From a virus, in IMG/VR virus record IMGVR_UViG_3300031539_010038, positions 1-64,000 of that record: a stretch of 64,000 nt of DNA. The stretch is one strand, 5' to 3'. The notes beneath the pieces were generated by a model that worked only from the letters and a program-made list of their open reading frames with translations, made no database searches and was not told the origin of the DNA. A program made the position numbers and the translations under genes. This document shows positions 80 to 17,691 of this stretch, in pieces. Position 1 is the stretch's first letter, and the number at the start of each line of letters is the position of its first letter.

Positions 80-165
80 GGAGTGGTAGACCGATAAAGA
101 GACGAGATGGGCTGTAAACCCATCGCATTCGTGCCCGGGGGGAGCGTTACCCTCACACTCCACCA
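80..165 (+). tRNA. tRNA-Tyr(GTA)-like RNA with degenerate D and T arms
   Basis: The RNA ends in an encoded CCA (163-165). The acceptor is GGAGTG paired with CACTCC, with a mismatch at the seventh pair. The anticodon arm is perfect, with loop CTGTAAA and anticodon GTA at 114-116. A long variable arm (GCA, loop TTCG, TGC) fits the class II form of bacterial tRNA-Tyr, as does the 86-nt length. The D region has no GG pair and no convincing stem. The T-loop reads AGCGTTA instead of TTCRANT, although a GGGGG/CCCTC stem can form. The normal elbow contacts (G18-U55, G19-C56) are therefore missing on both sides. It may be a functional variant, a decoy, or a decaying gene. Confidence 0.6.
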
Positions 166-219
166 CTTATGTTTCATACTATGATTGTGCTAAAAAATAC
201 AGTAAAGGACACATGTAAT

Positions 220-462
220 ATGAATCTTCTTATAGAATATACAAGAGAAAAATATTTCAAAATAACAGATAGACGAACAGCCGTTCCCCTTGTCACAATT
301 GTTGTGACAAGCGTGGAGAATACTAAGATTACTGATTGGTCTGGAAATATAATGTATTCTGAGACAGGTTTTAATAAAGGATTATTTAGTAGTTTTTCCT
401 CGACGACAGAAGATTGCTGGTCTCAAATTTCAAAGAAAGAGGCTGAAGGGTACTGTAAATGA
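220..462 (+). CDS. Tiny paralog family, Y-x-R-E type, copy 1
   Basis: This 80-residue protein is of unknown function. An upstream in-frame ATG exists at 169, but 220 is chosen because from there it matches its neighbours: it begins MNLLIEYTREKYF and ends with a W-x-Q-I-S-K-K motif before a short helix. AAAGG lies about 10 bases upstream. It opens a run of seven related ORFs (220-2434) and overlaps the next by ATGA, so the two are probably translationally coupled. No signal peptide or membrane segment is seen. Confidence 0.7.
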   Translation: MNLLIEYTREKYFKITDRRTAVPLVTIVVTSVENTKITDWSGNIMYSETGFNKGLFSSFSSTTEDCWSQISKKEAEGYCK

Positions 463-704
463 ATCTTATCCTAAAATATAAAAGAGAAAAGTATTTTTTA
501 TACAGTTTTAATGGCCTCTTTACTTTAGTAAAGACGGATCGAGTTAATACCAATCGACATAACTGGATGGGCCGAATATTATTTAGTACTGAGGGCCATT
601 CGAAAGGCTGGGGGCCTTGTTCAAGTACCAAGAGTCACTCTGGTTGGAAACAGCTTGCTAAAAAACAAGCAATAGAGATATTGGAATCTAAGCCTTGCGT
701 CTAA
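459..704 (+). CDS. Tiny paralog family, Y-x-R-E type, copy 2
   Basis: This 81-residue protein has unknown function. It starts MNLILKYKREKYFL and near the C-terminus has GWKQLAKKQA, aligned to the W-x-[QK]-[ILV]-[SA]-K motif of its neighbours. Its start overlaps the stop of the previous gene by ATGA. The middle of the protein shares little with the other copies, so the ends are conserved and the centre is variable. Confidence 0.7.
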   Translation: MNLILKYKREKYFLYSFNGLFTLVKTDRVNTNRHNWMGRILFSTEGHSKGWGPCSSTKSHSGWKQLAKKQAIEILESKPCV

Positions 705-746
705 TAAATATTAATAAATAAAGGATAACAAATCGTAGGAGGTAAT

Positions 747-1034
747 ATGTCTGATGGAACAGCGGCCCAGGTTTTTGGATTAATCTTCGAGCGTATTGGT
801 AAAGATCCGCCAGATGATAGGCGGGCGGAATTGATTAATGATATTCATGACCTTATGAGTGATTATGATTTTGATTATAATGAGATGAATTGTGACGAGG
901 AGCTGATTGAATTTGGTATAGCCAGGTATGGAATTCATAAAGAGAATTCTGAAAATGGCGAGGAAAGCATCATCTATTATCCTTTTGATGATGAGCTAGA
1001 ATTTGATGATGAGGATGATGAGGATGACGATTAA
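747..1034 (+). CDS. Small acidic protein
   Basis: This 95-residue protein is of unknown function. A strong ribosome binding site (GTAGGAGG) lies 6-7 bases before the ATG, better than those of its neighbours, so it is probably well expressed. The last dozen residues are almost all Asp or Glu. Such tails occur in DNA mimics and in proteins that bind basic partners, but nothing here proves that. It does not belong to the tiny paralog family that surrounds it. Confidence 0.75.
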   Translation: MSDGTAAQVFGLIFERIGKDPPDDRRAELINDIHDLMSDYDFDYNEMNCDEELIEFGIARYGIHKENSENGEESIIYYPFDDELEFDDEDDEDDD

Positions 1035-1093
1035 TCTTAATGAGAGATGGGGAATCTCTTATGAGAGCGAGAGCCCTCGCTGGAGGAGACGCA

Positions 1094-1366
1094 ATGAAAC
1101 TATTGATGGAACATGAGAGAGAGCGGTATTTTCTCCAAGCCTCGGGAGAATATTGGAATGTCATAAAGCAGGAGGGGTCTTCCTACGGATATATGATTGG
1201 GTCATCATTTATTGCACCACATCTGTGGTTAAAGTACTCTAAAATTAGTTCCGATATGGTTCAGGTTTCTAAAGAAGTCGCGGAAAACTATATGATAGAT
1301 CATCGAGAGGATATTGAAATTATTAGAGCCGCGCGCCGTGCCGCGAGCCGGCTTCTAAGATCATGA
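1094..1366 (+). CDS. Tiny paralog family, Y-x-R-E type, copy 3
   Basis: This 90-residue protein is of unknown function. The start is set at 1094, not the upstream in-frame ATG at 1040, because GGAGGAG sits just before it and the protein then begins MKLLMEHERERYF like its relatives. It shares EYWNV in the first third and Y-x-IDH-x2-DIE near the end with copy 7 (2168-2434), so these two form a sub-pair. Its C-terminal motif is M-V-Q-V-S-K, with Met in place of Trp. It ends in a basic, Arg-rich tail and overlaps the next gene by ATGA. Confidence 0.75.
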   Translation: MKLLMEHERERYFLQASGEYWNVIKQEGSSYGYMIGSSFIAPHLWLKYSKISSDMVQVSKEVAENYMIDHREDIEIIRAARRAASRLLRS

Positions 1367-1644
1367 ATCTACTGCTTAAATATAAGCGGGAAATGTTCTT
1401 CAGAAATGGAGGAACTATGCTTGCAAAAAGCAACAGTCCCAGCCCCGGCTATGACGCATCTCTAACATATAAAGCATATATGTTATATGAGGGACTTTGT
1501 CCTGAATTACACGAATGTGATTATAGGTTTAATCTTCCAAATGGATCTTGGAGGCAAGTTTCTAGGCGGGATGCGATGGATTATCTATCCTCAGTCCTGG
1601 CTTATTATGAGGCATCAAGAAGAATTAGTGTGGGGCTAGAATGA
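1363..1644 (+). CDS. Tiny paralog family, Y-x-R-E type, copy 4
   Basis: This 93-residue protein is of unknown function. It begins MNLLLKYKREMFF and carries SWRQVSRRDAMDYL, the C-terminal W-x-Q-V-S motif followed by a helix. It overlaps both neighbours by ATGA, so copies 3, 4 and 5 form one tightly coupled unit. The central region holds a family-unrelated stretch with two Cys residues. Confidence 0.7.
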   Translation: MNLLLKYKREMFFRNGGTMLAKSNSPSPGYDASLTYKAYMLYEGLCPELHECDYRFNLPNGSWRQVSRRDAMDYLSSVLAYYEASRRISVGLE

Positions 1645-1886
1645 AATTCCTAATGGAATACGAGAGGGAAGTGTTTTTTCTTTTCTCTGATAAAGAATGT
1701 CTTGCGGTGACAAATCTGCGTGATCCAAAGAAGGGATACGTTTTATATCAAAAGGGCCACGAGCGAAGAAAATGTAGTACATTTGTCTCATTTAACTCAA
1801 AATCATGGACTCAAGTTTCTAAAAAACAAGCCATAGAATTCCTTATTCTTAAGGGTTTGGAAGAAAAGGATACTCTTCCTTCATAA
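1641..1886 (+). CDS. Tiny paralog family, Y-x-R-E type, copy 5
   Basis: This 81-residue protein is of unknown function. It begins MKFLMEYEREVFFLF and has SWTQVSKKQAIEFL near the C-terminus, the clearest version of the shared end motif. It overlaps the previous gene by ATGA. Twenty bases separate it from the next copy, which has its own AGAGAGG site. Confidence 0.7.
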   Translation: MKFLMEYEREVFFLFSDKECLAVTNLRDPKKGYVLYQKGHERRKCSTFVSFNSKSWTQVSKKQAIEFLILKGLEEKDTLPS

Positions 1887-1905
1887 AAGAAGAGAGGTAT
1901 GAATA

Positions 1906-2184
1906 ATGAAATTATTAGCAAAATATGACCGTATTTCCTACTATAGATTAAATGGCGGCTCCATTCTTTTAAAAGAAGTTCATGGAAATGATAAACAAAT
2001 TATTATATTTCGGGACGCGGGAAAACTAACCATACATCAACTAGATGTCAGAAATACAAAAATTTGGACAAAAATATCTTTGCAGCAAGCCAAAGAATAT
2101 CTTCTAGAGAATCTGTCTTCAGAAGAAGCGATGCGCAGGATCAAGCTCTCTTATGAGGATATTCATTATGAAATTACTTTTTGA
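1906..2184 (+). CDS. Tiny paralog family, Y-x-R-E type, copy 6
   Basis: This 92-residue protein is of unknown function. It begins MKLLAKYDRISYYRL, a diverged form of the family start in which the Glu after Arg is replaced by Ile. It keeps IWTKISLQQAKEYLL near the C-terminus. AGAGAGG lies upstream of the ATG. Its end overlaps the start of copy 7 by 17 bases. Confidence 0.7.
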   Translation: MKLLAKYDRISYYRLNGGSILLKEVHGNDKQIIIFRDAGKLTIHQLDVRNTKIWTKISLQQAKEYLLENLSSEEAMRRIKLSYEDIHYEITF

Positions 2185-2434
2185 ATATGAGCGAGAGATC
2201 TATTTTGTTGATAGATCCAATGAGTATTGGAATGTTTTTGTTTCAAGTTCCCCTCCAATTTCTGGAGGGGACAAAAAGGTGATAGCGTCATCATATTCAT
2301 TCAACAAAACACGCTGGATTTTTCTGGCGAAAGAATCTACTGCATATTTTAATATGAAACAAATCTCGAAAAGAGACGCCTTGAACTACTCAATAGACCA
2401 CATCAAAGATATTGAGAGAAATCTTTCGAGATAA
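2168..2434 (+). CDS. Tiny paralog family, Y-x-R-E type, copy 7
   Basis: This 88-residue protein is of unknown function. The ATG at 2168 (not 2153) gives the family start MKLLFEYEREIYF. It shares EYWNV and the C-terminal Y-x-IDH-x2-DIE with copy 3, and ends with M-K-Q-I-S-K-R-D-A. It is the last member of the first tandem array. A tRNA gene follows 24 bases later. Confidence 0.7.
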   Translation: MKLLFEYEREIYFVDRSNEYWNVFVSSSPPISGGDKKVIASSYSFNKTRWIFLAKESTAYFNMKQISKRDALNYSIDHIKDIERNLSR

Positions 2435-2458
2435 TTCTTTAATAATTAGAATTAATAT

Positions 2459-2544
2459 AAGGGAGTAACTCAGCCAGGTCAGAGTGCCGATTTTGGGGAT
2501 CGGAAGCCAGTAGGTATACGCAGGTTCGAATCCTGTCTCCCTTA
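2459..2544 (+). tRNA. tRNA-Pro(TGG)
   Basis: The cloverleaf is complete: acceptor AAGGGAG/CTCCCTT, a D-loop containing GG, anticodon stem CCGAT/ATCGG with anticodon TGG at 2494-2496, and T-arm GCAGG/CCTGT with the standard TTCGAAT loop. No CCA is encoded. The variable region is about 16 bases, unusually long for tRNA-Pro, which normally has a short one. TGG reads CCA and, with wobble, other Pro codons. Confidence 0.9.
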
Positions 2545-2578
2545 CGAAGTTTAAATCTTATCAGTTAGACTAATAGAA

Positions 2579-2809
2579 ATGACAGAAATGACAGAATTTA
2601 AATGTCCCTGGTGGCTTGGCCCATGTAATTTTATTCTATTACAGTGGTTCTTTGTAAGATTAGTAGCCGCGTTCCATGATGATGGGATAATAAGTAACTT
2701 TTACTTATGGAAAGGAGTTTTCCCTTTAACAGGATGGTTTGGATTAAAATATTGGCTACCATTTAATAAAGCTGGCAATAGAGCCGGCCCCCCTTGGAAA
2801 ATTGATTAA
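2579..2809 (+). CDS. Small conserved-type phage protein, Trp/Phe-rich
   Basis: This 76-residue protein is of unknown function. It is rich in Trp and Phe. The pattern LQWFFVRL, then a DDG turn, then V-F-P-L-T-G-W resembles small proteins often seen in large phage genomes, but no function is known to me. There are two close ATG choices (2579, 2588) and no clear Shine-Dalgarno site. It follows tRNA-Pro directly and may be read from the same transcript. Confidence 0.6.
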   Translation: MTEMTEFKCPWWLGPCNFILLQWFFVRLVAAFHDDGIISNFYLWKGVFPLTGWFGLKYWLPFNKAGNRAGPPWKID

Positions 2810-2852
2810 CGATTAAAATCGTTTCGTAAGAAAGAAAGAAAGAAGTGAATAA

Positions 2853-3368
2853 ATGTTAAAAAACATATCCAATATAGAAACCAAGATTAGCAACACAATT
2901 GCTTCGTATAAGGATTTGTATAAGTTTTCGTATATTGACCCAAATACTGATAGAAAAATCATTCTTGAAAGAATGGGACCTATTGGAAAAGATGATGAGA
3001 TGTTTTGTGAGCATAAAACATACTCTGATGAAGCAGAGGCAAATTTGCCCTGTGATGGATTTTATGGTTGGTTTTGTGCAGGTTCTAATTGTATTAGAAT
3101 GGGCGTACAGGCGAGGTATGAATATGAAACCAATGATGATTGGTACGGAGGCCTTCTGACAGGATTTGATATTGTGAAAATTGGCTTCGATGATTCATTT
3201 ATATACCATAAAATAGGATATGCTGAACCAAAATATGAAAAAGGCAGGCTGATAGGATTGAAACAAGACAGCATAATATGCGGAATCCCGGTTATTAGTG
3301 ATATCCTTAGGGATGGCCGATTCATTTATTGGAATAAAGAAACTTTCCTATCAGATTTTGACTTATAG
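2853..3368 (+). CDS. Hypothetical protein, 171 aa
   Basis: This is a soluble-looking protein of unknown function with no recognised domain. It contains several Gly-Trp/Tyr-rich loops around residues 65-110 (DGFYGWF, DDWYGGLL), which suggest a beta-rich fold. GAAAGAAAG precedes the ATG in place of a strong Shine-Dalgarno site. Its composition matches its neighbours. Confidence 0.7.
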   Translation: MLKNISNIETKISNTIASYKDLYKFSYIDPNTDRKIILERMGPIGKDDEMFCEHKTYSDEAEANLPCDGFYGWFCAGSNCIRMGVQARYEYETNDDWYGGLLTGFDIVKIGFDDSFIYHKIGYAEPKYEKGRLIGLKQDSIICGIPVISDILRDGRFIYWNKETFLSDFDL

Positions 3369-3380
3369 TCAACCGTGAAG

Positions 3381-3575
3381 ATGCATATAAAATATTCCAG
3401 GCTTATTGGAAAAAGAGTTTTTCATAGGAGTAACGGCTTGATATACATGATGATTGAAAAAGGAACCTACACCGAGCTGGTCGAGGCGTGGCCTATGCTC
3501 CCAGCCTCGCCGCAACCCTCTAAGAAGGTTGGGCGTAGAACATGCCTGAAGCTTTCTGATTTTAATATAGATTAA
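3381..3575 (+). CDS. Tiny protein of the M-x-I-K-Y type
   Basis: This 64-residue protein is of unknown function. A GTG at 3375 is in frame, but the ATG at 3381 gives a start, MHIKYSRL, that matches other tiny ORFs in the window (12821, 26110, 37914, 38198, 58875). The central part is Pro-rich and the end is basic. It lies just upstream of a promoter and the tRNA-Asn gene. Confidence 0.55.
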   Translation: MHIKYSRLIGKRVFHRSNGLIYMMIEKGTYTELVEAWPMLPASPQPSKKVGRRTCLKLSDFNID

Positions 3576-3620
3576 AATGCAGAGAAAATATCTCTCTAGA
3601 CCCAACACGGTAGAAAGGCC

Positions 3621-3649
3621 TTGACCTCGGTAGAGCATGCGGCTATACT
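3621..3649 (+). promoter_or_regulatory. Sigma70-type promoter before tRNA-Asn
   Basis: TTGACC (3621-3626), a 17-base spacer and TATACT (3644-3649) form a near-consensus sigma70 promoter. The predicted start at about 3656 lies 9 bases before tRNA-Asn, so it should drive the tRNA and the HNH gene behind it. The GC before the -35 and the GGC before the -10 recur at other promoters in the window. Confidence 0.85.
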
Positions 3650-3664
3650 GAAGCTGTAAGACAT

Positions 3665-3737
3665 TCCGTGATAACTCAGATGGGAGAGTGGCGTCCTGTT
3701 AAGTCGCAAGTCGCAAGTTCAAGTCTTGCTCACGGAG
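3665..3737 (+). tRNA. tRNA-Asn(GTT)
   Basis: The cloverleaf is complete: acceptor TCCGTGA/TCACGGA, D-arm CTCAGATGGGAGAG, anticodon loop CTGTTAA with GTT at 3698-3700, and T-arm GCAAG/CTTGC with loop TTCAAGT. The anticodon stem GCGTC/GTCGC has one T-T mismatch. No CCA is encoded. Unlike the Tyr-like RNA at 80-165, the elbow elements are intact. Confidence 0.9.
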
Positions 3738-3758
3738 CTAAAGTATATGAAGGGATAA

Positions 3759-4400
3759 ATGAGTGAGAATGTAAAGGCCTGGAGAAAAAGGACCAGGTGG
3801 AGAATTATTGAGGCTATGGGAGGAAAGTGTGTCTGCTGTGGTTATGCAGAATGTTATTCTGCTATGGCATTTCATCATATAAATCCAGACGAAAAAGATT
3901 TTACTATAAGTAATATGAGATCTAATCCCAAGTCTTGGACTAAAATAGTAGAAGAGCTAAGGAAGTGTGTATTAGTTTGTCATAATTGTCATAGTGAGAT
4001 CCATCATGGAATGGGGATTTTACCATCGGACGCAATAAGATTTAATGAAGCATATTCTTCTTATTCTAATTTAGACAAAATTAAATCTAAGAAATTATTT
4101 CCATTCTCTTGGAGCTTTCTTAATGGAAAAGAATGTGAAAATTGTCGAAAAATTACCACTCATAAAAAGTATTGCACACTAAAGTGTGCTGCTGCTGGTA
4201 AAAAAAAGATATGGATTAAGATTCCTATTCGAAGACCAGAGGGATTAGGAAGATATAAAAAAGACTGGCCATCAAATGAAAAATTGATCGAATCACTTAA
4301 AACGCTAAGTTATGATCAATTGGCTATTAAATTAGAAGTATCGGATAATGCTATCCGGAAGCGACTATCGCGTCAAAGAATAAAGGATGCAAAAAAATGA
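3759..4400 (+). CDS. HNH endonuclease with zinc-finger and C-terminal helix-turn-helix
   Basis: This 213-residue protein looks like a free-standing homing-type endonuclease. Residues 24-82 hold a zinc-bound HNH fold: CVCC, then AFHHINPDEK (the HH pair), then CHNCHSEIHHG. A second Cys cluster (CENC, later CTLKC) lies near residues 126-147. The end, LSYDQLAIKLEVSDNAIRK, reads as a helix-turn-helix that could bind DNA. Such genes spread between phages by cutting related genomes, and its position beside a tRNA is typical. AGGGAT precedes the ATG. Confidence 0.85.
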   Translation: MSENVKAWRKRTRWRIIEAMGGKCVCCGYAECYSAMAFHHINPDEKDFTISNMRSNPKSWTKIVEELRKCVLVCHNCHSEIHHGMGILPSDAIRFNEAYSSYSNLDKIKSKKLFPFSWSFLNGKECENCRKITTHKKYCTLKCAAAGKKKIWIKIPIRRPEGLGRYKKDWPSNEKLIESLKTLSYDQLAIKLEVSDNAIRKRLSRQRIKDAKK

Positions 4401-4507
4401 GCAAGATTTATAAACTCTATAATGAAAACCGATACTTTATAATAAGTCGAATTATTATATATGTAGCATGCGTTGCATTTGGATATTTCGTTATAGCTGA
4501 ATTATAG
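4397..4507 (+). CDS. Tiny single-span membrane protein
   Basis: A 36-residue ORF overlaps the HNH stop by ATGA. After a short polar start with Tyr and Arg, residues 14-36 form one hydrophobic segment (IISRIIIYVACVAFGYFVIA), so it is probably a small inner-membrane peptide. Its role is unknown. The 116 bases after it (4508-4623) hold no ORF I can support. They include a weak GCAGA/TCTGC pairing and a GTGT/ACAC hairpin. Confidence 0.55.
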   Translation: MSKIYKLYNENRYFIISRIIIYVACVAFGYFVIAEL

Positions 4508-4623
4508 AGGAGCAGACAAGCTGATTTAATGTTGGCCTTCTCAGTGTGATATATAGACACATGATGGGGTCTTTCTGCCAATTTTCTTAATCTAATAATA
4601 CCACATTACTAAAGGAGACAAAT

Positions 4624-5136
4624 ATGTTTGATAGAGTAAAGAACAGTTTTCCGGCACAATATATGGCCTTTAAGGTTAAGAATATGAAAAATCCCCTTAA
4701 GAATGTGAAAAACCCCTTCAAGAAAGAAGAAAAGGAGAAAGAAATGGACGATACGCAAGATACGACTGATAATTTTGATTATGCTGTGGCCCCTAAGCAG
4801 GATCAAGAGGAAGATAAGCCTACGCCTGGCATGATTGATAATCTCAAGGCTGAGGTAAACTCTGCCATGGTCGGCATGGCAGCCGATGAGATTAGCGGGC
4901 AAACCAAGAAGTTTATTGTCGATAAGATTCTAAAGCGAGTCTCTGACGACAATAGAATCAAGAAGGTTCTTGTAGGTCCTCTTGGAGACTCTATTGTTTG
5001 TGCCACCATGGGCCGTGCTATGGATCAGGTTCCTCTCAATGATGAGAAGTTTAAGCGAGTAGCCAATACTCTGCGCATTATGGGCATGTCCCGCGGCATT
5101 ATGGCTGTTAAGAAGATGATCTTCAAGCGTAAGTAA
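4624..5136 (+). CDS. Hypothetical charged protein, 170 aa
   Basis: This is a protein of unknown function with a strong ribosome binding site (AAAGGAGA). The first 60 residues are rich in Lys, Asn and Pro, with a short internal repeat (KNMKNPLKNVKNPFK), then a charged linker. The C-terminal 100 residues look globular and helical and end in a very basic stretch. Codon use has more G and C at third positions than its neighbours, which suggests strong expression or a different origin. Non-coding RNA elements follow it. Confidence 0.75.
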   Translation: MFDRVKNSFPAQYMAFKVKNMKNPLKNVKNPFKKEEKEKEMDDTQDTTDNFDYAVAPKQDQEEDKPTPGMIDNLKAEVNSAMVGMAADEISGQTKKFIVDKILKRVSDDNRIKKVLVGPLGDSIVCATMGRAMDQVPLNDEKFKRVANTLRIMGMSRGIMAVKKMIFKRK

Positions 5137-5178
5137 TAATCAGCAGAAATATAATCTTGCTTGCAATGAGCAAGATAT

Positions 5179-5224
5179 GTCCCCATGGTCTAGTCCAGCA
5201 TCAGTTCGAATCTGATTGGGGACA
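5179..5224 (+). ncRNA. Miniature tRNA-like RNA with no anticodon arm
   Basis: Bases 5179-5185 (GTCCCCA) pair perfectly with 5217-5223 (TGGGGAC) as a 7-bp acceptor stem. A perfect T-arm follows the usual geometry (5200-5216: ATCAG, loop TTCGAAT, CTGAT). TGGTCTAGTCCA lies where a D-arm should be. Nothing remains that could be an anticodon arm, and the whole RNA is 46 nt. Acceptor and D-arm start resemble bacterial tRNA-Glu (GTCCCC..., GTCTAG), so it may be a decapitated tRNA-Glu. An 8-bp hairpin (5154-5176) sits 2 bases upstream. It could be a decaying gene or a functional tRNA mimic. Confidence 0.6.
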
Positions 5225-5259
5225 CGATTGCTAGGCTGAAGATCTCGTCTGCTCAGACA

Positions 5260-5372
5260 TTAGACTATTAGGATTGAGTTTCTAGTAGTCTAACTTTTGC
5301 ACGGGCCAAAAGCTTGTGCGATTCGCTGCTCATGGCAATTAGATCATCAGGATTGATTTCTTGATGGTCTAA
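5260..5372 (+). ncRNA. Twin covarying RNA hairpins with a conserved loop
   Basis: Two copies of one hairpin lie in tandem. Copy A is 5260-5293 (12-bp stem) and copy B is 5339-5372 (11-bp stem). Both keep the loop core GGATTGA and TTAGA/TCTAA at the base. Stem differences are compensated: T-A becomes C-G at pairs 7 and 10, and pairs 6 and 9 switch between Watson-Crick and G-T. GGGCC follows each copy. A third hairpin (GGCCCC/GGGGCC, 5458-5480) lies before tRNA-Ile. This 5225-5518 stretch therefore looks like structured RNA. A minus-strand ORF (5268-5492) exists but has no ribosome binding site. Confidence 0.6.
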
Positions 5373-5518
5373 CAGAGTATTTTGGGCCACCAGAAATATT
5401 CTCATCTTGTTCTTGATTCGTTGGGATGCTGCTGTTTTTGCTATGGTGGCAACTTTTGGCCCCATCATCTGGTTGGGGCCGCACACACACAAAGGAATTG
5501 GTAAACGTATATAAATTT

Positions 5519-5593
5519 AGACTCGTAGCTCAGTCGGCTTAGAGCAACATTCTGATACAATGTGTGTCGGTGGTTCGAATCCACCCGGGTCTA
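5519..5593 (+). tRNA. tRNA-Ile(GAT)
   Basis: The cloverleaf is complete: acceptor AGACTCG/CGGGTCT with one G-T pair, D-arm CTCAGTCGGCTTAGAGC, anticodon stem ACATT/AATGT with GAT at 5554-5556, and T-arm GGTGG/CCACC with loop TTCGAAT. No CCA is encoded. It closes a stretch of RNA elements and is followed by an intrinsic terminator. Confidence 0.93.
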
Positions 5594-5605
5594 CTAAAAT
5601 ATGGC

Positions 5606-5625
5606 GAGCAGGCTTGCTCTTTTTT
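5606..5625 (+). terminator. Intrinsic terminator after tRNA-Ile
   Basis: GAGCA (5606-5610) pairs with TGCTC (5615-5619) across a 4-base loop and runs into a tract of six T. The stem is short, but position and T-run fit a rho-independent terminator for the tRNA/RNA transcript. Confidence 0.65.
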
Positions 5626-5642
5626 CTTAAAGGCTAAGGCAA

Positions 5643-5849
5643 ATGAATTTATTGTTATGTGTTCTTATTCCTGGCGAATACTATATGCTCAAGGCTAGCT
5701 TTAAAGAGTATAGAAGATACCTACGCCTGGATAGTGACGGCGTTCCACTTTTTGAAGATGTGAACCAACGGCGGTTCTGCGATCAAGGAATACCCATTCA
5801 TAGAGTGGCCGAAGTTTATGATTACCTAGGAAAGGAGCTTCCAAAATGA
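5643..5849 (+). CDS. Tiny paralog family, L-L-x-x-x-I-P-G type, copy 1
   Basis: This 68-residue protein is of unknown function. It begins MNLLLCVLIPGEYYML, closely matched by the next ORF (MNLLLNVFIPGEIWEC). AAGG lies upstream. It overlaps the next gene by ATGA. The start resembles the Y-x-R-E group at 220-2434, which suggests one larger superfamily. Confidence 0.7.
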   Translation: MNLLLCVLIPGEYYMLKASFKEYRRYLRLDSDGVPLFEDVNQRRFCDQGIPIHRVAEVYDYLGKELPK

Positions 5850-6106
5850 ACCTTCTTCTTAATGTATTTATTCCTGGAGAAATATGGGAATGCAAACCGC
5901 TTAATTCTTTTAGAAAATATATAGGATTATCTACACATGATAATCCTATTATGGGTACCTTCGGAGTATCCTGTGGCGATGGTTTTGTATTCGAGACTAT
6001 TAGTGATCTAACAGATAGTGCTGATACTATAGGAAGAATAGGCGGGGCAAGTTCTAACCTTTTACTTAAAAACTATAAGTATAGTGGGCAGAAGTATGAA
6101 TTATAA
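5846..6106 (+). CDS. Tiny paralog family, L-L-x-x-x-I-P-G type, copy 2
   Basis: This 86-residue protein is of unknown function. Its first 12 residues match the previous copy (MNLLLNVFIPGE), after which the two diverge, as in the first array. Starts and stops overlap on both sides (ATGA with copy 1, 11 bases with copy 3), so the group is one coupled unit. Confidence 0.7.
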   Translation: MNLLLNVFIPGEIWECKPLNSFRKYIGLSTHDNPIMGTFGVSCGDGFVFETISDLTDSADTIGRIGGASSNLLLKNYKYSGQKYEL

Positions 6107-6338
6107 GATAAAGCTGTTGCTTACTCCTCTTATTAGAGGAGAATGTTGGAAAATACAGCATGGCTATGCGCCCCCATTCATAGCCAGGCTACTAAGAAGT
6201 CCAAAGAGTTCCAATGATATTGGCCCGGGGTTATTCCAAATAATTGATGATGATGACGGTAATGACGGTAGTTGGTGCTCGCTAGGGGGCTTTGTTAGAG
6301 ATGGAAAATATCTTGGCATAGAGAAAGATAAAAAATAA
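6096..6338 (+). CDS. Tiny paralog family, L-L-x-P-x-I-x-G type, copy 3
   Basis: This 80-residue protein is of unknown function. The ATG at 6096 is preferred over the in-frame GTG at 6084 because it yields KIKLLLTPLIRGECWKI, matching the later 34-residue copy (KLLLTPIIKGWDYLK). Residues 48-57 hold an acidic Asp/Gly-rich stretch. The stop at 6338 overlaps the next ATG by one base. Confidence 0.65.
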   Translation: MNYKIKLLLTPLIRGECWKIQHGYAPPFIARLLRSPKSSNDIGPGLFQIIDDDDGNDGSWCSLGGFVRDGKYLGIEKDKK

Positions 6339-6586
6339 TGAGACCAGAAAATAAAAAAGCGACGGATCTTAATCATTTGACTGGATATGCGAACCGGATT
6401 CGTAAGTCAATTCTAGGTCTTAATCTTCCACAGAAAGATGTTCCGACATTGAGAGCATTGAAGCGTGCGGTAAATAAGATGTTTTCTGAGGCCAAAGAGC
6501 TTTCGGCAAAAAAAGATATACCATTTCAAATGGCTATAAGCAGCATGGTGATTACATCTTTTGCTGAAAGATGGGAAATCAAATGA
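6338..6586 (+). CDS. Hypothetical helical protein, 82 aa
   Basis: This protein of unknown function is mostly helical and basic in the first 60 residues. It does not share the tiny-family start and sits between two members. Its stop overlaps the next ATG (ATGA). Confidence 0.6.
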   Translation: MRPENKKATDLNHLTGYANRIRKSILGLNLPQKDVPTLRALKRAVNKMFSEAKELSAKKDIPFQMAISSMVITSFAERWEIK

Positions 6587-6687
6587 AACTACTGTTGACC
6601 CCAATAATTAAAGGGTGGGATTACTTAAAGACCATACAAAATTATGGAACATATTTGGGACCGACATATAGTGAAAAGGATAAATAA
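6583..6687 (+). CDS. Tiny paralog family, L-L-x-P-x-I-x-G type, shortest copy
   Basis: A 34-residue ORF starts MKLLLTPIIKGWDYLK, nearly the same as copy 3 at 6096, then stops early. It overlaps the previous gene by ATGA and ends directly at the EF-Ts start, so it may be kept as a coupling leader for EF-Ts or be a truncated paralog. Confidence 0.6.
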   Translation: MKLLLTPIIKGWDYLKTIQNYGTYLGPTYSEKDK

Positions 6688-7263
6688 GTGAATATAGAAA
6701 AACTGAAAGAACTTCGAGAGAAAACGAATGTTTCTATGAATGCTTGCCGGAAAGCTCTAGAGGAATCTTCCGGCGATATGGATAAGGCTATTAAGATCTT
6801 AAAGACCAAAAGTCTTATGGTTGCTGGAGATGTATCGGAAAAATCTACATCAGAAGGTAAGATTTGTTCTTATATCCATCCTGGAAATAAGCTTGCTGTT
6901 TTGCTTGAAGTCCAATGCGAGACAGATTTTGCGGCAAGATCCGAGGATTTTAACCAATTTTGTGAAAGCGTATACCTTCAAATTGCAGGGATGAGCCCTA
7001 TTTATCTATCAAGAGATCAGGTTGATGATGATAAGTATAAAGATCAAAGAGAAATCTTTACAGCTCAGGTCAAGGATAAACCAGAAAAGATTCAAGAGAA
7101 AATTATAGAAGGTAAATTTAATAAATGGTTCGGTGATGTCTGCCTCTTGGAGCAAAAGCTGGTTCAAGATAATGATAAAACCGTTAAGCAATTAAGAGAT
7201 GAACTTATCGGAAAACTTCGAGAGAACGTGGTAATAAAGCGTTTCGTGCGTTGGGAAATATGA
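6688..7263 (+). CDS. tsf: Translation elongation factor Ts homolog
   Basis: EF-Ts reloads EF-Tu with GTP during elongation. This 191-residue protein keeps the N-terminal UBA-like helices (LREKTNVSMNACRKALEE, residues 9-26), the core QCETDF motif (77-81 region) that inserts next to the EF-Tu nucleotide site, and a C-terminal EGKFNKWF...LLEQ segment. It is shorter than the roughly 280-residue E. coli protein, mainly through a reduced dimerisation part. The start codon is GTG, directly after the previous stop. EF-Ts is rare in phages. It joins IF-3, bS21 and other translation genes in this window. Q-beta phage uses host EF-Ts in its replicase, so a non-translation role is also possible. Confidence 0.93.
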   Translation: MNIEKLKELREKTNVSMNACRKALEESSGDMDKAIKILKTKSLMVAGDVSEKSTSEGKICSYIHPGNKLAVLLEVQCETDFAARSEDFNQFCESVYLQIAGMSPIYLSRDQVDDDKYKDQREIFTAQVKDKPEKIQEKIIEGKFNKWFGDVCLLEQKLVQDNDKTVKQLRDELIGKLRENVVIKRFVRWEI

Positions 7264-7493
7264 TTACAAAAGCAATAGAAATGGCATGCGGCTCGGATGC
7301 AGAAGCAGCCGAGCTGCTTTTGCAGGATAAATTGAAAAAAGCAATCATTGCAAGATGTAATGTAATTCAACTATTAGATATCATAAAGTATGATTATACT
7401 AAGATCTCCGATCTAAAAAACCAAAATGCTATTTTGAATGAGAATATTAAAGAAATAATCACAGGCCTTGGATTTACTGAAGCATATGGTTAA
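7260..7493 (+). CDS. Hypothetical helical protein after EF-Ts
   Basis: This 77-residue protein is of unknown function, starting at the ATGA that overlaps the EF-Ts stop, so it is coupled to EF-Ts. It is predicted helical, with an Ala/Glu-rich first half and a possible coiled coil near residues 48-65. It has no match to the C-terminus of EF-Ts, so it is not a split part of that gene as far as I can see. Confidence 0.6.
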   Translation: MITKAIEMACGSDAEAAELLLQDKLKKAIIARCNVIQLLDIIKYDYTKISDLKNQNAILNENIKEIITGLGFTEAYG

Positions 7494-7689
7494 TCCTGCT
7501 GCGACAATTCGACTATTATTGCAAACATCTATTACCGGAGATGTCTGGAACGTAAGTGGATTTGTTCTTACCCAACAATCTTGCGTGGACAAGAGGGGTA
7601 TTGCAAAGTTCAGCCGAAATAGTCTTTCTTCGTTATTGGAGTATAACGTCCCAATGATGTTCACACTTCCTCAATATTTAAAAAAATAA
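7486..7689 (+). CDS. Tiny paralog family, L-L-L-Q-x-x-I-x-G type
   Basis: This 67-residue protein is of unknown function. The ATG at 7486 is preferred over 7468. The segment IRLLLQTSITGDVWNV aligns with IKLLLTPLIRGECWKI at 6096, so it is a further member of the same group, set apart by EF-Ts. Confidence 0.55.
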   Translation: MVNPAATIRLLLQTSITGDVWNVSGFVLTQQSCVDKRGIAKFSRNSLSSLLEYNVPMMFTLPQYLKK

Positions 7690-7699
7690 AAGGCCTTAA

Positions 7700-8797
7700 A
7701 TGAAAATGAGAAGAACAGCAGTATGTCGTGCAGCACCCAGTGTATTTGGCGCCCGCCGAAGGCCCGCGCCCAGACGCCTCCCGGCAGCAAAAAAGATCGC
7801 ACCAAAAAAAACAATCGAAAAAGTTAAAGATATCATAGAATATAAGGAAATGAATCCTGTTATTCATGAGGATGGTGATTGGAAAATTTGTAGAGCCATT
7901 TGCGAACAAGATGCTAGAAAATATCTAGGAAGGGGTATGAGCGTGGAGAGTTTCTGGCACCGTTACAAACCCTCCCATAGTAAATTACAATGGAAGAAAA
8001 CTCACTCTGTAAAGAATAAAATTTATGTTTTGCTAAACAAAAAACATTCAGCGATTAATATGTTTTTTGATGTTACAACTAATAAGTTGTACAACGTACA
8101 TATATCAAGCTTTACCATAAATAAAGGAATAGGAGCAGCTATTATTCCTAAAGAATTGCTACAAAAATGTAGAGAAGATTCTAAGAAAAACTATCCGTCA
8201 TATACTGATTATGAATCATATAGTGATAATGTCCTTAGGGAGTGGATAGAAAAAAATCTAAGTTTGCTCAGCAAGACTGAACATTTTACTGATGGGCTCG
8301 TAGGAAAAGCCTCCGTCCTGTTAGGAGATAATTGTTATACTCACGTTCCTTTTCATAGGAAAAAGTTCTTACTGCATAAAAATAATAGTGAATCTCTTAA
8401 AGAAAAATTATTTTCTTATTCTTTAACTCCCAAATCAAAGATAAATCTAAAGACCTTTATTAAAGTTCATCCAGACTTTTTTCCTAAGGTGCCGAATGCT
8501 GATGTAAGACGTCTTCTTCAGAGCGCTCCAGAGCATATCGGAAAGCTTTCCGCAATTCAAAAAGAAGTTATATTTAAACCCATTCCCACAAATTTAGTTC
8601 TGCTTAAGGCCCTTTTAAAGGCTAAAACAATCAATAAAATTGATAAAGCAAAGGTCGAAGCTTCCATTAAGGAAATATTAAAAATAAATGCCGCTCGAAA
8701 AAAACGAGAGGAGCGCAATAAGGTAATAACTATCAGTGCAGCTAAACTGAGGAAGCTTGTTGCCTCCAAGGTAGAAAGTGCTCTAAAGAATAATTAA
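7700..8797 (+). CDS. Large paralog group, member 1 (365 aa)
   Basis: This protein is of unknown function. The first 35 residues are very basic (Arg/Pro/Ala-rich, then Lys), as in nucleic-acid-binding tails. A middle part (residues 50-190) resembles the GTRWCI domain of the next gene: W-K-I-C-R start, YLGRG, a beta segment and a WIEKNL helix. The C-terminal 100 residues are Lys-rich helices. It has lost the WCI triplet. Together with 8807-10147 and 13782-14873 it forms a three-member family. Confidence 0.65.
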   Translation: MKMRRTAVCRAAPSVFGARRRPAPRRLPAAKKIAPKKTIEKVKDIIEYKEMNPVIHEDGDWKICRAICEQDARKYLGRGMSVESFWHRYKPSHSKLQWKKTHSVKNKIYVLLNKKHSAINMFFDVTTNKLYNVHISSFTINKGIGAAIIPKELLQKCREDSKKNYPSYTDYESYSDNVLREWIEKNLSLLSKTEHFTDGLVGKASVLLGDNCYTHVPFHRKKFLLHKNNSESLKEKLFSYSLTPKSKINLKTFIKVHPDFFPKVPNADVRRLLQSAPEHIGKLSAIQKEVIFKPIPTNLVLLKALLKAKTINKIDKAKVEASIKEILKINAARKKREERNKVITISAAKLRKLVASKVESALKNN

Positions 8798-8806
8798 AGG
8801 TAATCA

Positions 8807-10147
8807 ATGCAGCAAGCAAAAGTTAAGCCAACTAAACAAGCCAAAGAAATAAAAGTTAAAAAACTTTCAAGAACAGAACAAATTGAGAAGGATTTTCCAA
8901 AGATAAAAGTATCGGAGCTTATAAATAAAGATCCGACAGAGAATAATGCTTACATTTATTGGATGGCCAAGCAGCTTGACGCTGGTATTTCTTCAAAGGA
9001 AGATCTTTGGGGTACAATCTTGTCCTTTCATAAGATGAAGGACAGGCTTCCGTCCGATAAGAGAGATATTTATCAATATGAAAGCGTCTCTATTTTAGAA
9101 AATAAGCTTAAAGATCTTGGTGATTCTAAGCGGCAGCAAAAGAGTGTAATTAAGCAGAGCACTCATATCGTATATGAGGATGATACTTGTACTGTTTATA
9201 GAATAGATTCCTTAAAAGCTTGCATGCTTTATGGAAAAGGCACAAGATGGTGCATTTGCATGGGCAATGGTACATACTACCGTCAGTACTATACTGGTGG
9301 AAGTAGAATGTATTTTCTTTTGGATAAAAAGCGTCCAGAGATTAAAATGTGCCTTCAGGTTAAAGGAACAAATTCGGATCCGGAGTATTCATTGTGGTAC
9401 GAGAATGATGCGAATACTCCAATACATTATTTTGAAAGAATGTATGATGATTATAAAACAATTTATGAGAATATAAAGAAAGATCTTCCAAGCTTTCCAT
9501 CATATCAGCAACTCAGAGCAGGAACTGCTGATCAGCAAGTCGCTGTTAGATTTGGAATGCTTAATACATGGATGCTATCAACTGTATTTAGGAAATGTTC
9601 TGTGGTATTAGATCAAGAGATTATCAATATAATTAATGAGCAAGAGTTAAACGATAAAAAAGAGATCATAAAACATATGGGTTATGATGCTTTTAAGAAA
9701 TCTACAATCAAAATAACTGACAAGGCTTTCTTGGATCTTATGGCGACATGTCTCACTGGTAAGAATCTGGCGGAGTTTTCCGTAGATCATCCAGAATATT
9801 TGTCTCAGACTATTAGCAGAATCTATATAGCTCAGTTAACTAAAAAGTACATGGAGAGGTTCTCAGCCGAGATAAAGCTTGATATTTTAAATCAAAAAAC
9901 CGTTCCAGATAAGCTTTTAGTCGTTCTTAGGGTAGATGAGGATGAGGCAGTAAATGATAAGGCTAGAGAAATTTATCTAAAAAACCTTGAAATTAAAAAG
10001 AAAATCGCCGCATCGAAAAAGAAAAAAGAAGCTATCAAGGCAAAATCATATGTAAAAATGTTTAGTCCGTTGGAAATAGAACAAATGATAGATAGCGCTA
10101 TTAAGAAAGCACTTGCTAAAACTAAAGTAGAGGAGAAGAAAATATGA
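8807..10147 (+). CDS. Large paralog group, member 2 (GTRWCI motif, 446 aa)
   Basis: This protein is of unknown function. Its central domain reads VYRIDSLKACMLYGKGTRWCI, then a Tyr-rich NGTYYRQYYTGG segment, then YFLLDKKRPEIKMCLQV. A G-T-[KR]-W-C-I/T motif followed by such a segment occurs in many phage hypothetical proteins. The ends are Lys-rich and helical. The third paralog (13782) has the same order with GTKWCI. Its stop overlaps the groES start. Confidence 0.75.
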   Translation: MQQAKVKPTKQAKEIKVKKLSRTEQIEKDFPKIKVSELINKDPTENNAYIYWMAKQLDAGISSKEDLWGTILSFHKMKDRLPSDKRDIYQYESVSILENKLKDLGDSKRQQKSVIKQSTHIVYEDDTCTVYRIDSLKACMLYGKGTRWCICMGNGTYYRQYYTGGSRMYFLLDKKRPEIKMCLQVKGTNSDPEYSLWYENDANTPIHYFERMYDDYKTIYENIKKDLPSFPSYQQLRAGTADQQVAVRFGMLNTWMLSTVFRKCSVVLDQEIINIINEQELNDKKEIIKHMGYDAFKKSTIKITDKAFLDLMATCLTGKNLAEFSVDHPEYLSQTISRIYIAQLTKKYMERFSAEIKLDILNQKTVPDKLLVVLRVDEDEAVNDKAREIYLKNLEIKKKIAASKKKKEAIKAKSYVKMFSPLEIEQMIDSAIKKALAKTKVEEKKI

Positions 10148-10440
10148 AGATAATTCCAGTAGAAAATAGAGTCCTAGTTCAACTTCCTGAGAAGAAGGAA
10201 AAAACAGAAGGTGGACTCTTCATTCCAGGCAACATAGATGAGAAGAAAGACCTTCTTGATGGGGAGGTTCTGGCCGTAGGCCCTGGGGAAACCATAGATG
10301 GTCAGTATATAAGAACCCCACCTTGCCAGGTAGGACAGGTTGTTCTGTTTGCTAACTTTTCTGGTTCACCCATAAAGGTTAATGACACCGATTGTGTTCT
10401 TCTTCATGGTTCGGAGATAATGGCTATTAAAGAACAATAG
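10144..10440 (+). CDS. groES: Co-chaperonin GroES
   Basis: GroES caps the GroEL chamber. This 98-residue protein has family length and shows the start IPVENRVLVQ, the mobile-loop motif EGGLFIPGN (residues 22-30), GEVLAVGPGE (40-49), and the end VGQVVLFANFSG...LLHGSEIMAI. Phages such as T4 (gp31) carry their own GroES to fold the capsid protein in host GroEL, which is the likely job here. It overlaps the previous gene by ATGA and is followed by a long RNA hairpin. Confidence 0.95.
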   Translation: MKIIPVENRVLVQLPEKKEKTEGGLFIPGNIDEKKDLLDGEVLAVGPGETIDGQYIRTPPCQVGQVVLFANFSGSPIKVNDTDCVLLHGSEIMAIKEQ

Positions 10441-10445
10441 CAGGT

Positions 10446-10498
10446 CCTTTCGGCCTCTTTAAGGATCACATAAAAACCAATCCTTAAAGAGCCAAAGG
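10446..10498 (+). other. Long RNA hairpin after groES
   Basis: Bases 10452-10466 pair with 10480-10493 (14 bp with one bulged C), and CCTTT (10446-10450) pairs with AAAGG (10494-10498) to extend the stem. No T-run follows; the next bases are the -35 box of a promoter. It may protect the groES mRNA 3' end or separate it from the downstream RNA unit. Confidence 0.65.
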
Positions 10499-10500
10499 GC

Positions 10501-10528
10501 TTGACGCTTGGCTCCGGTTGGCTATAAT
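10501..10528 (+). promoter_or_regulatory. Strong sigma70-type promoter for the structured RNA/tRNA unit
   Basis: TTGACG (10501-10506), 16 bases, then TATAAT (10523-10528), a perfect -10. Transcription should start near 10535 and cover a 240-base non-coding stretch and the tRNA-Leu-like RNA. GC precedes the -35 and GGC the -10, as at other promoters here. Confidence 0.88.
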
Positions 10529-10534
10529 ACGGAT

Positions 10535-10775
10535 GTTAGATTGACCAGATGCCGATGAAACAATCGACCAAAGATACGGGAGTAGCTAGCTCTCTCAATA
10601 AGGGATGGAGAGAGTCCCTTTCAGATCCTTTTAGCAAGATCTGATAAGTCTCAAACCTTGGTTTGACCCAGGGTCTTCCCGAGACATCTCCAAATCTCGG
10701 GAGCACTAATGAAAAAGTCTACAAAAAAATTAATTTTATGATAAGATGTAGATGAGTATCTAGTGCTCTCTTTTA
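10535..10775 (+). ncRNA. Promoter-driven structured RNA of unknown family
   Basis: No ORF is supported in these 240 bases. Several perfect hairpins occur: CTCTCTC/GAGAGAG (10590-10614); an alternative AAGGGA/TCCCTT (10600-10620) that competes or pseudoknots with it; TCAGATC/GATCTGA (10621-10644); TCAAAC/GTTTGA with a CTTG tetraloop (10651-10666); TCCCGAGA/TCTCGGGA (10677-10702); and TGCTCT/AGAGCA (10764-10780), which invades the start of the tRNA-like RNA. I see no RNase P, tmRNA or 6S signature. It is probably a small RNA, or a long structured leader processed off the tRNA-like RNA. Confidence 0.6.
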
Positions 10776-10867
10776 GAGCAGTTGGCGGAATTGGCAGACG
10801 CGACAGGGTACTTCGGTATTCTGTTGGCCGCAAGGTCGTCCAGGTTCAAGTCCTGGACTGCTCACCA
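10776..10867 (+). ncRNA. tRNA-Leu-like RNA with a UUCG hairpin instead of an anticodon
   Basis: The acceptor GAGCAGT/ACTGCTC, discriminator A, encoded CCA (10865-10867), Leu-type D-arm (GCGGAATTGGCAGACGC), long variable arm (GGCC, GCAA tetraloop, GGTC) and T-arm (CCAGG, TTCAAGT, CCTGG) are all intact. Where the anticodon arm should be, 10803-10811 pair with 10816-10824 as 9 continuous base pairs capped by TTCG (10812-10815). No register leaves a 7-base loop with T33, so no anticodon is presented. It could be charged or processed like a tRNA but could not decode. Confidence 0.75.
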
Positions 10868-10896: not shown

Positions 10897-11622
10897 ATGG
10901 AATATGATAATTATCTAGAAGCGGTAGAGATTACATCTGAAATGAAGAAAGCTGGGAAAGATCCCAGCTTTCTTAGTTTTTGCATCAAATATTTAGACGA
11001 TGATATACTAAAATATCTTAGGCTTTGGAATGATGATCGCTGGAATAATAATCACATTCAAGATCTTAATTATATTTTAGATAAACATGTTTATTTAACA
11101 AAGGCTATGGATTATAGCAGAGCTTTGCGAGAGTGGCTATCGATCAGGTTGAAAAATGGGCAAGAATATCCGACAAATGTCGACCAGCTTCTGGCTGATA
11201 TTGAGCACTCTGCTCTTCTTCCCAGAATATTAAATGGAGATAAAATTTATCCGGAGCCTCCACCTGGTAGTTGGTATGATCTTATAGAAAAAGGAAAAGC
11301 TAAAACCATTTCTCTTAAAGAGTATGGGAAAACATTATTGATTGATCAATCAATATGGAATATAATTGAAAAAGTAAAGGATGGGGAGTGGGTGGCGTCC
11401 TATGAGATAATAGACGCTGAGGCGCTAGAAAAGATAGCAAAGGATCACGAGCGCACATTGGAGGACGTACTGCATGAGATGCAGTATGCTTTGCCAAAGA
11501 GATTAGCTAGCACAAGATGGAAGATATCTTACCTTGGCAAAGAGAATATTTCTACAATCGGTCAACCATATATGGCTGATACCTGGGAAATTTGCAAACT
11601 GTTTTTGAAAATAGGAGAATAA
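10897..11622 (+). CDS. Hypothetical protein, 241 aa
   Basis: This is a soluble, mostly helical protein of unknown function with no recognised domain. The first 120 residues are rich in Asp, Tyr and Leu; near residues 120-135 there is a Pro-rich turn (YPEPPPGSWYD). A run of about 15 A lies 15-25 bases before the ATG, with no clear Shine-Dalgarno site, so translation may rely on A-rich initiation. It follows the tRNA-Leu-like RNA and is probably on the same transcript. Confidence 0.75.
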   Translation: MEYDNYLEAVEITSEMKKAGKDPSFLSFCIKYLDDDILKYLRLWNDDRWNNNHIQDLNYILDKHVYLTKAMDYSRALREWLSIRLKNGQEYPTNVDQLLADIEHSALLPRILNGDKIYPEPPPGSWYDLIEKGKAKTISLKEYGKTLLIDQSIWNIIEKVKDGEWVASYEIIDAEALEKIAKDHERTLEDVLHEMQYALPKRLASTRWKISYLGKENISTIGQPYMADTWEICKLFLKIGE

Positions 11623-16113: not shown

Positions 16114-16203
16114 AGAAAGGTGCCCGAGTCTGGTTGAAGGGGGCTGCTTGGAAAGCAGTTGATCGTAAATAGCGATCCGTAGGTTCGAATCCTATCCTTT
16201 CTG
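16114..16203 (+). tRNA. tRNA-Ser(GGA)
   Basis: A class II tRNA: acceptor AGAAAGG/CCTTTCT, D-arm CCGAGTCTGGTTGAAGGG, anticodon loop TTGGAAA with GGA at 16150-16152, a long variable arm (GATCG/CGATC) and a T-loop TTCGAAT. No CCA is encoded. All tertiary elements look normal. Confidence 0.93.
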
Positions 16204-16216
16204 CAAATTGGATAAT

Positions 16217-16804: not shown

Positions 16805-17266
16805 ATGTATCTTTTATTGATTCGTCGAGATAAGATGTCTTTCATCTTAAAAATTAAGATGAAGAAGGCTCAAGATGATCCGTGGGTGCTGTATTTGGTG
16901 GTCAATAAGGACCTAAATATGGGATTGGGAAAAGTTGCTGCACAATGTGGACATGGCGTTGGGCAGCTCGATATTTATCATGAGAGTATCTTGACGAAGA
17001 GTCTTCAAGGCAAAAAGTTATCGAAGCAGGAGATGGCTCATTTCGATAGAGTTTCTTCTTGGAGAAAAGACTCATTTCGGAAGATAGTTCTTGAGGGGTC
17101 TAATAAGACCTGGAATAGATTAAAAAGCCTAGATTGCAAACATTTTATTGTTAGAGATGCCGGATTCACAGAAGTATCTCCTGGATCTGAAACGGTAATA
17201 GCATATTTGCCTATGCAAAAATCTCAAGTGCCAGAGCTTCTGGCTAAACTTCGACTACTTAAATAA
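16805..17266 (+). CDS. pth2: Peptidyl-tRNA hydrolase, Pth2 family
   Basis: Pth2 cleaves the ester bond of peptidyl-tRNA that drops off ribosomes, which recycles the tRNA. Motifs: LVVNKDLNMGLGKVAAQCGHG (residues 31-51) and FIVRDAGFTEVSPGSETVIA (114-133). Both match the archaeal/eukaryotic-type Pth2 fold, not the bacterial Pth1. About 20 residues precede the usual start; ATG codons at 16835 and 16859 are alternatives. Bacteria use Pth1, so this gene is an unusual acquisition that fits the phage's own translation set. Confidence 0.9.
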   Translation: MYLLLIRRDKMSFILKIKMKKAQDDPWVLYLVVNKDLNMGLGKVAAQCGHGVGQLDIYHESILTKSLQGKKLSKQEMAHFDRVSSWRKDSFRKIVLEGSNKTWNRLKSLDCKHFIVRDAGFTEVSPGSETVIAYLPMQKSQVPELLAKLRLLK

Positions 17267-17691
17267 TGAAATACGAATCATATGGGAGGGTATTTGAGGA
17301 TCATAGCCACAAAAAATGGTGGCTATTCATCAGAGCCGATTCTTCCATTTCTCATTACTATTGCTGGCTTATGTCTCGTTATGGTATTGCGATGAATCCT
17401 GGAAATAGGCATGGCTCACATATTTCTATTGTACAAGGGGAAACTCCAAAAGATAAAGTTTGCTGGGGGGCGCTTATTGGAGCAAAAGTTGAGTTTAAAT
17501 ACTCAAGTCTTATTAAGTACAATGGCCTACATGCCTGGGTTGAGGTTCAATCAAAGCAAATGGAGGAAATAAGAAAGTCGCTAGGCCTATCTGCTACACC
17601 ATGGCATAGATTCCACCTGACAATTGGCCAGTGTCAATTTCCAGTCATTGGAGCAACTAAACAATCAGGAATAATAAAGATTGAGCCATGA
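17266..17691 (+). CDS. 2H phosphoesterase family protein
   Basis: Two H-x-[ST]-x motifs lie 65 residues apart: HISI (His52, Ser54) and HLTI (His117, Thr119). This is the signature of 2H phosphoesterases, which act on 2',3'-cyclic phosphates or on cyclic oligonucleotides. Length (141 aa) and spacing are close to those of the anti-CBASS enzyme Acb1 (T4 gp57B) as I recall it, so it may destroy host cyclic-nucleotide alarm signals. An RNA-end or tRNA-repair role is the other option, given Pth2 directly upstream. It overlaps Pth2 by one base and the next ORF by ATGA. Confidence 0.75.
   Translation: MKYESYGRVFEDHSHKKWWLFIRADSSISHYYCWLMSRYGIAMNPGNRHGSHISIVQGETPKDKVCWGALIGAKVEFKYSSLIKYNGLHAWVEVQSKQMEEIRKSLGLSATPWHRFHLTIGQCQFPVIGATKQSGIIKIEP

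Follow-up and report, generated by a model that had tools for sequence, protein, structure and literature searches.

Aberrant tRNA-like elements of a large-phage record and a candidate phage group of tRNA bodies that lack the anticodon arm

The tRNA-Tyr genes of phages T5 and SP15 counter retron-Eco7, and that of T6 counters Septu, in each case by supplying a functional tRNA (PMC11555353, PMC13096335). Rescue from retron-Eco7 was lost when the phage tRNA-Tyr was altered in its stem-loops or its anticodon, and escape therefore works through the supply of functional tRNA (PMC11555353). GOLLD and ROOL are large structured noncoding RNAs of phages that lie near tRNAs, and the GOLLD linker sometimes holds tRNAs itself (PMC12286853). 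A familiar RNA whose tRNA-like end has no decoding anticodon arm is tmRNA, in which a tRNA-Ala-like half is joined to a message. Aberrant tRNA genes among normal ones are annotated in phages as "tRNA-Pseudo" or "tRNA-OTHER"; one in Caulobacter phage CcrColossus (61821–61890) has an aberrant or reduced anticodon arm. These are annotation labels, treated as pseudogenes, and no structural or functional class corresponding to them was found in the literature searched. The second "pseudo" entry of CcrColossus resembles a nearly normal tRNA-Leu. Here we describe three aberrant tRNA-derived elements, designated M1, M2, and M3, from IMG/VR virus record IMGVR_UViG_3300031539_010038. The window analysed is bases 1–64000 of this 70,933-base record, which is part of a large phage genome as judged by its gene content.

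An earlier note on this DNA had proposed three tRNA-like RNAs, each altered in a different module. Structural reading confirmed all three, each above its shuffled controls. M3 (10776–10867, plus strand, as are M1 and M2) is a tRNA-Leu-like element in which a 9-bp hairpin capped by UUCG stands in place of the anticodon arm. Its acceptor stem (7/7 bp), Leu D arm, variable arm, perfect T arm, and encoded ACCA are all intact. The replacement arm reads ACAGGGUAC-UUCG-GUAUUCUGU and includes two G·U pairs. The fold of M3 had a z-score of −3.45, and none of 200 shuffled sequences was equally stable. The elements by which leucyl-tRNA synthetase (LeuRS) recognizes its substrate, namely A73, a Leu-type D loop, and a long variable arm, are present in the sequence. 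The possibility that M3 is an intron-bearing tRNA was considered and rejected; removal of the extra 5 nt restores no Leu anticodon loop.

M2 (5179–5224) consists of an acceptor stem (7/7 bp), a small D-like hairpin of 3 bp, and a T arm, AUCAG-UUCGAAU-CUGAU. It has neither an anticodon arm nor an encoded CCA, and its 5′ part is similar to tRNA-Glu/Asp. A strict scan for an acceptor stem and T loop gave 0.04 matches per shuffled genome, and in 150 shuffles there was no strict match as short as M2 with as many G-C pairs; a looser scan for an acceptor stem and T arm was not significant (2.4 matches per shuffled genome). M1 (80–165) is tRNA-Tyr(GUA)-like, with 6 of 7 acceptor pairs, a 5-bp T stem, and an encoded A73-CCA. 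Its anticodon arm is intact (AUGGG-CUGUAAA-CCCAU), and its elbow contacts are lost: the D loop is devoid of GG, and AGCGUUA forms the T loop. In a search for cloverleafs with CCA, M1 was the single match in the genome, compared with 0.017 per dinucleotide-shuffled genome, under criteria set post hoc. None of the three elements matched the Rfam tRNA model (RF00005) even at E ≤ 5, and no other Rfam family matched them at relaxed thresholds.

When the modules were compared across the elements, a 7-nt anticodon loop with U33 on a 5-bp stem was found only in M1 (CUGUAAA); both M2 and M3 lack it, which bears out the earlier claim that these two are non-decoding. The elbow pair of D-loop GG and T-loop UUC is present in M3, absent from M1, and represented in M2 by the T loop only. 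M2 and M3 have in full the 7-bp acceptor stem, the 5-bp T stem with a UUCRANY loop, and the discriminator, whereas M1 has 6/7 and 5/5 of the respective pairs and a T loop that does not conform. M1 was accordingly set apart from the other two as a divergent or decaying tRNA-Tyr that retains its Tyr anticodon.

The elements share a tRNA body with the phage tRNAs that counter defences, and M1 is Tyr-like as those are; however, the latter are intact and decoding, whereas M2 and M3 have no means of decoding and M1 is without the elbow. M3 also differs from tmRNA in being a complete Leu body with no message.

To M3 can be added a larger set of elements from other viruses. A pattern describing a tRNA-Leu body without U33 and A35 matched at least 120 stretches in viral contigs. 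Applied to 84,980 genomes of bacteria and archaea, the same pattern matched only 33 stretches, eight of which had runs of N within the element; many of the remainder were in Bacteroidota. Among the viral matches listed, 106 of 125 extracted elements had all seven acceptor pairs, 42 of 59 distinct acceptor pairs were fully paired (3.4 after shuffling), and a 5-bp stem stood at the canonical anticodon position in only 5 of 134 Leu-bodied elements. Most of these elements were missed by ARAGORN, while several scored 30–43 bits with the Rfam tRNA model, and about half had no ARAGORN call within 3 kb. The phenomenon is not specific to Leu: a control pattern built on the class-I D arm also gave many matches (at least 121 elements), and at least six acceptor pairs were found in 109 of the 121 matches listed, a set that may include working tRNAs with odd loops. 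M3 has the features of this group, in that its acceptor, D, and T arms are intact, it lacks a canonical anticodon arm, and it is borne by a virus. M2 deviates from the group in having no normal D arm, and M1 does not fit it.

Acceptor pairing alone was rejected as proof of selection, since dead tRNAs derived from different parents would show the same. Covariation was found within one subfamily. In this set of four variants, 100% of the cells in the alignment were paired and nine pairs had changed on both sides; four of these nine lie in a non-canonical 9-bp replacement stem, and sliding the register of the stem gave few or none. At least these variants represent an RNA under selection that lacks an anticodon arm. 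A second subfamily, with seven variants in ten records, has a replaced middle in common.

Several individual elements were also seen in the course of these scans. In viral contig L095 (1034–8025), a number of aberrant tRNA-Leu-like genes accompany normal tRNAs as well as GOLLD, tmRNA, and freshwater-1 RNAs. A viral tRNA-Leu(UAG) in L329 (1365–1453) has an apparent insertion of ~30 nt in the anticodon loop that resembles a small intron. In L011 (about 9025–9137), and also in L013 and L018, the anticodon arm of a tRNA-Leu body is predicted to fork into two hairpins; the L011-type element belongs to a phage that encodes 16 or more tRNAs. A class-I tRNA-like gene in L156, L173, L194, L255, and L259 has a common non-canonical middle (GTCGCAAGCGTTCATAGCGTAGCGGGTACGCGC), and in at least three contigs genes of this type adjoin a CI-like repressor gene.

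We consider M3 to be best read, from its sequence, as the body of a tRNA-Leu retained in the absence of decoding and as a member of this phage group. The most favored explanation, which we put slightly short of an even chance, is that in M3, and probably in M2, the tRNA body has been retained and decoding given up, with the RNA used as a decoy for a factor that reads the body. By established tRNA biology, RNase P would be expected to excise M3 as a CCA-ended RNA, and proteins that read the tRNA body should be able to bind it. Bacterial LeuRS does not require the anticodon, and M3 could thus be leucylated. In the proposed role, the RNA would occupy a tRNA-binding factor that reads the body, such as EF-Tu, a synthetase, or a host effector directed at the acceptor or variable arm, and would leave the decoding pool unenlarged. 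The intact body and closed hairpin of M3, the recurrence of such bodies in phages, the covarying subfamily, and the bias of the pattern toward viruses support this explanation. More broadly, we propose tentatively, and with somewhat less assurance, that phages contain a widespread, undescribed class of RNAs that are under selection, do not decode, and consist of complete tRNA bodies, of both the Leu and class-I types, with other structures in place of the anticodon domain; M3 would be a minimal, capped member whose function lies in the body, either as a decoy or as a non-translational aminoacyl carrier. No description of such a group was found in the open-access literature searched.

Several observations weigh against the decoy explanation. 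The M3 RNA, its processing, and its charging are predictions from sequence. Scans of viral contigs for the M3-type UUCG hairpin gave no true relative of its exact architecture, and the phage itself has no close relative in the collections searched (megablast of 12 kb and protein-based scans), so that selection on M3 itself is no more than putative. Moreover, no conserved neighbor or partner gene was found near the group elements, only ordinary phage genes (terminase, portal, repressor, SSB), and the mixed replaced middles of the group may conceal several functions or dead genes.

A close rival, above all for M2, although on the whole a doubtful one, is that M2 and M3 serve as processing punctuation: minimal substrates for RNase P, and for RNase Z, that mark the ends of neighboring structured RNAs. 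RNase P requires little beyond the acceptor/T-arm stack, and because punctuation needs only these two parts the rest of the tRNA would be free to change. M2 and tRNA-Ile bracket a strongly structured noncoding segment of 294 nt (5225–5518, plus strand), and M3 terminates a structured noncoding leader of about 240 nt (10530–10775, plus strand) that starts from a promoter-like site. Region 5137–5518 had a fold z-score of −5.54 and region 10530–10867, comprising the leader and M3, one of −3.41; the windows at 5281 and 10441 ranked in the top three of the first 17 kb for stability against shuffled sequences. The promoter candidate (10501–10528, plus strand), TTGACG-16-TATAAT, lies upstream of the leader and M3 and is the best sigma-70-like site in the first 17 kb, matching the consensus at 11 of 12 positions; it was identified by consensus match only. 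On the other side, the D and variable arms retained by M3 would be superfluous for punctuation. The T loop of M1 is damaged, and this element, situated at the end of the contig, has no structured neighbor in the record. No relatives of the flanking segments are known.

Two related 36-nt hairpins (5259–5294 and 5338–5373), which are 75% identical and have the loop GGATTGA(G)TTTC, lie in the segment enclosed by M2 and tRNA-Ile. Their stem pairs differ on both sides with pairing preserved, as read from the two copies. This segment, which had no match in Rfam or in phages, is possibly a new noncoding RNA. The leader 5′ of M3 likewise had no match in phages; it falls within a long structured noncoding region (10441–10775) that has a perfect 12-bp inverted repeat at 10455–10491. 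Both segments resemble GOLLD and ROOL in being structured RNA regions beside tRNA-like elements, but they are far shorter, have no Rfam match, and adjoin tRNA-like elements that are non-decoding.

A second alternative, which we regard as unlikely for the three elements together, is that M1, M2, and M3 are functionless remnants of tRNA genes that indels and recombination have broken in a phage carrying tRNAs. M2 resembles tRNA-Glu/Asp with an internal deletion, the elbow of M1 is damaged, and the paired acceptor stems of the wider group may have been inherited from different living tRNAs. Homing nucleases act in phage tRNA regions (PMC13096335), and a single putative HNH nuclease gene, supported by HNH matches in its protein set, adjoins tRNA-Asn. 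Decay of M1 and M2 is plausible. The hairpin of M3, however, is an extended one of nine perfect base pairs, two of them G·U, with a UUCG loop and the rest of the tRNA intact, an outcome that random decay would not be expected to give. For the group as a whole, simple decay is disfavored because the non-canonical replacement stem covaries in one subfamily; recurring middles in others also argue against it.

The earlier note had gone further and suggested that the mimics could act together with repair enzymes as a counter-defense against host tRNA cleavage. This proposal, in which non-decoding mimics would form a set with Thg1, Pth2, SpoU, and 2H proteins, was not supported, and we consider it very improbable. 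The enzymes do exist in the record, all on the plus strand: Pth2 peptidyl-tRNA hydrolase (16805–17266; PF01981, E = 1.4e-21), a SpoU-family methylase (19974–20489; PF00588, E = 6.5e-23), and a Thg1-like protein (21296–22144; PF04446, E = 3.1e-26). A possible 2H phosphoesterase (17266–17691) matched PF22547 below the curated cut-off (E = 8.2e-4; 20.1 bits versus 27). They do not stand beside the mimics, as had been described, but 6–10 kb past M3; because they are part there of a broader group of genes for translation and protein quality, their co-location is uninformative. In addition, among 50 phage records that include a non-decoding tRNA-Leu-like gene, not one had Thg1 or Pth2; these records may be fragmentary, and none comes from a relative of this phage. 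Thg1-like proteins were seen in 125 phage records, and a phage Thg1 is hence not unusual in itself. A competitive decoy of anticodon nucleases requires an anticodon loop, and M2 and M3 offer none as bait. Phage tRNAs do counter tRNA-cleaving defenses (PMC11555353, PMC13096335, PMC10264068), but in the Eco7 case changes in the stem-loops or anticodon abolish rescue (PMC11555353). The broader idea of tRNA mimics consisting of the body only did gain support, from the wider phage group.

Least probable of all, and only barely credible, is an aminoacyl-carrier role in which leucylated M3 would donate leucine off the ribosome for protein tagging or peptide synthesis; the predicted LeuRS recognition elements are intact in M3, but no aminoacyl-transferase was recognized among the families listed for the record, which for some scans were the first 25.

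The tRNAs that could be called in the record are few. ARAGORN and Rfam agreed on four only, all on the plus strand: tRNA-Pro(UGG) (2459–2545), tRNA-Asn(GUU) (3665–3738), tRNA-Ile(GAU) (5519–5594), and tRNA-Ser(GGA) (16114–16204). They had been described as normal, and they are indeed callable; nevertheless, tRNA-Pro has a 16-nt variable region, which is unusual for this tRNA, and the anticodon stem of tRNA-Asn includes a T-T mismatch. At gathering score there was no Rfam match besides these four tRNAs (GOLLD, ROOL, tmRNA, or others), and neither ARAGORN nor Rfam found a tmRNA. With relaxed thresholds, a weak match to a small-RNA family at 10927–11016 fell on a terminator-like hairpin.

The gene content is that of a large phage. 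The record encodes DNA polymerase III alpha, topoisomerase I, an FtsK-like protein, SbcCD, dNMP kinase, dUTPase, HNH nucleases, and a Clp/head-maturation protease. Genes for translation and protein folding comprise EF-Ts, IF3, S21, peptide deformylase, trigger factor, ClpP, and Cpn10 in addition to Pth2, SpoU, and Thg1. Only distant relatives were recovered (e.g., TopA 46%, contig L007), and no tRNA was found in their records. A series of small paralogous open reading frames with similar N-termini (MNLLIEYTREKYF, MNLILKYKREKYF, MKLLMEHERERYF, MKFLMEYEREVFF, and others) lies among the tRNAs at 169–2434. The open reading frame at 3759–4400, directly 3′ of tRNA-Asn, resembles an HNH nuclease by eye (CxxC...HH...CxxCH), and HNH PHROG matches occur in the protein set that contains it. 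HNH and other homing nucleases that adjoin phage tRNAs may promote tRNA rearrangement.

Phage tRNAs are usually counted with programs that require an anticodon, and the sequences that fail are discarded or labeled as pseudogenes. If a large part of these failures are selected RNAs with a working body, they would make up an unstudied share of the phage tRNA repertoire, and the reasons for which phages carry tRNAs would extend past the supply of codons.

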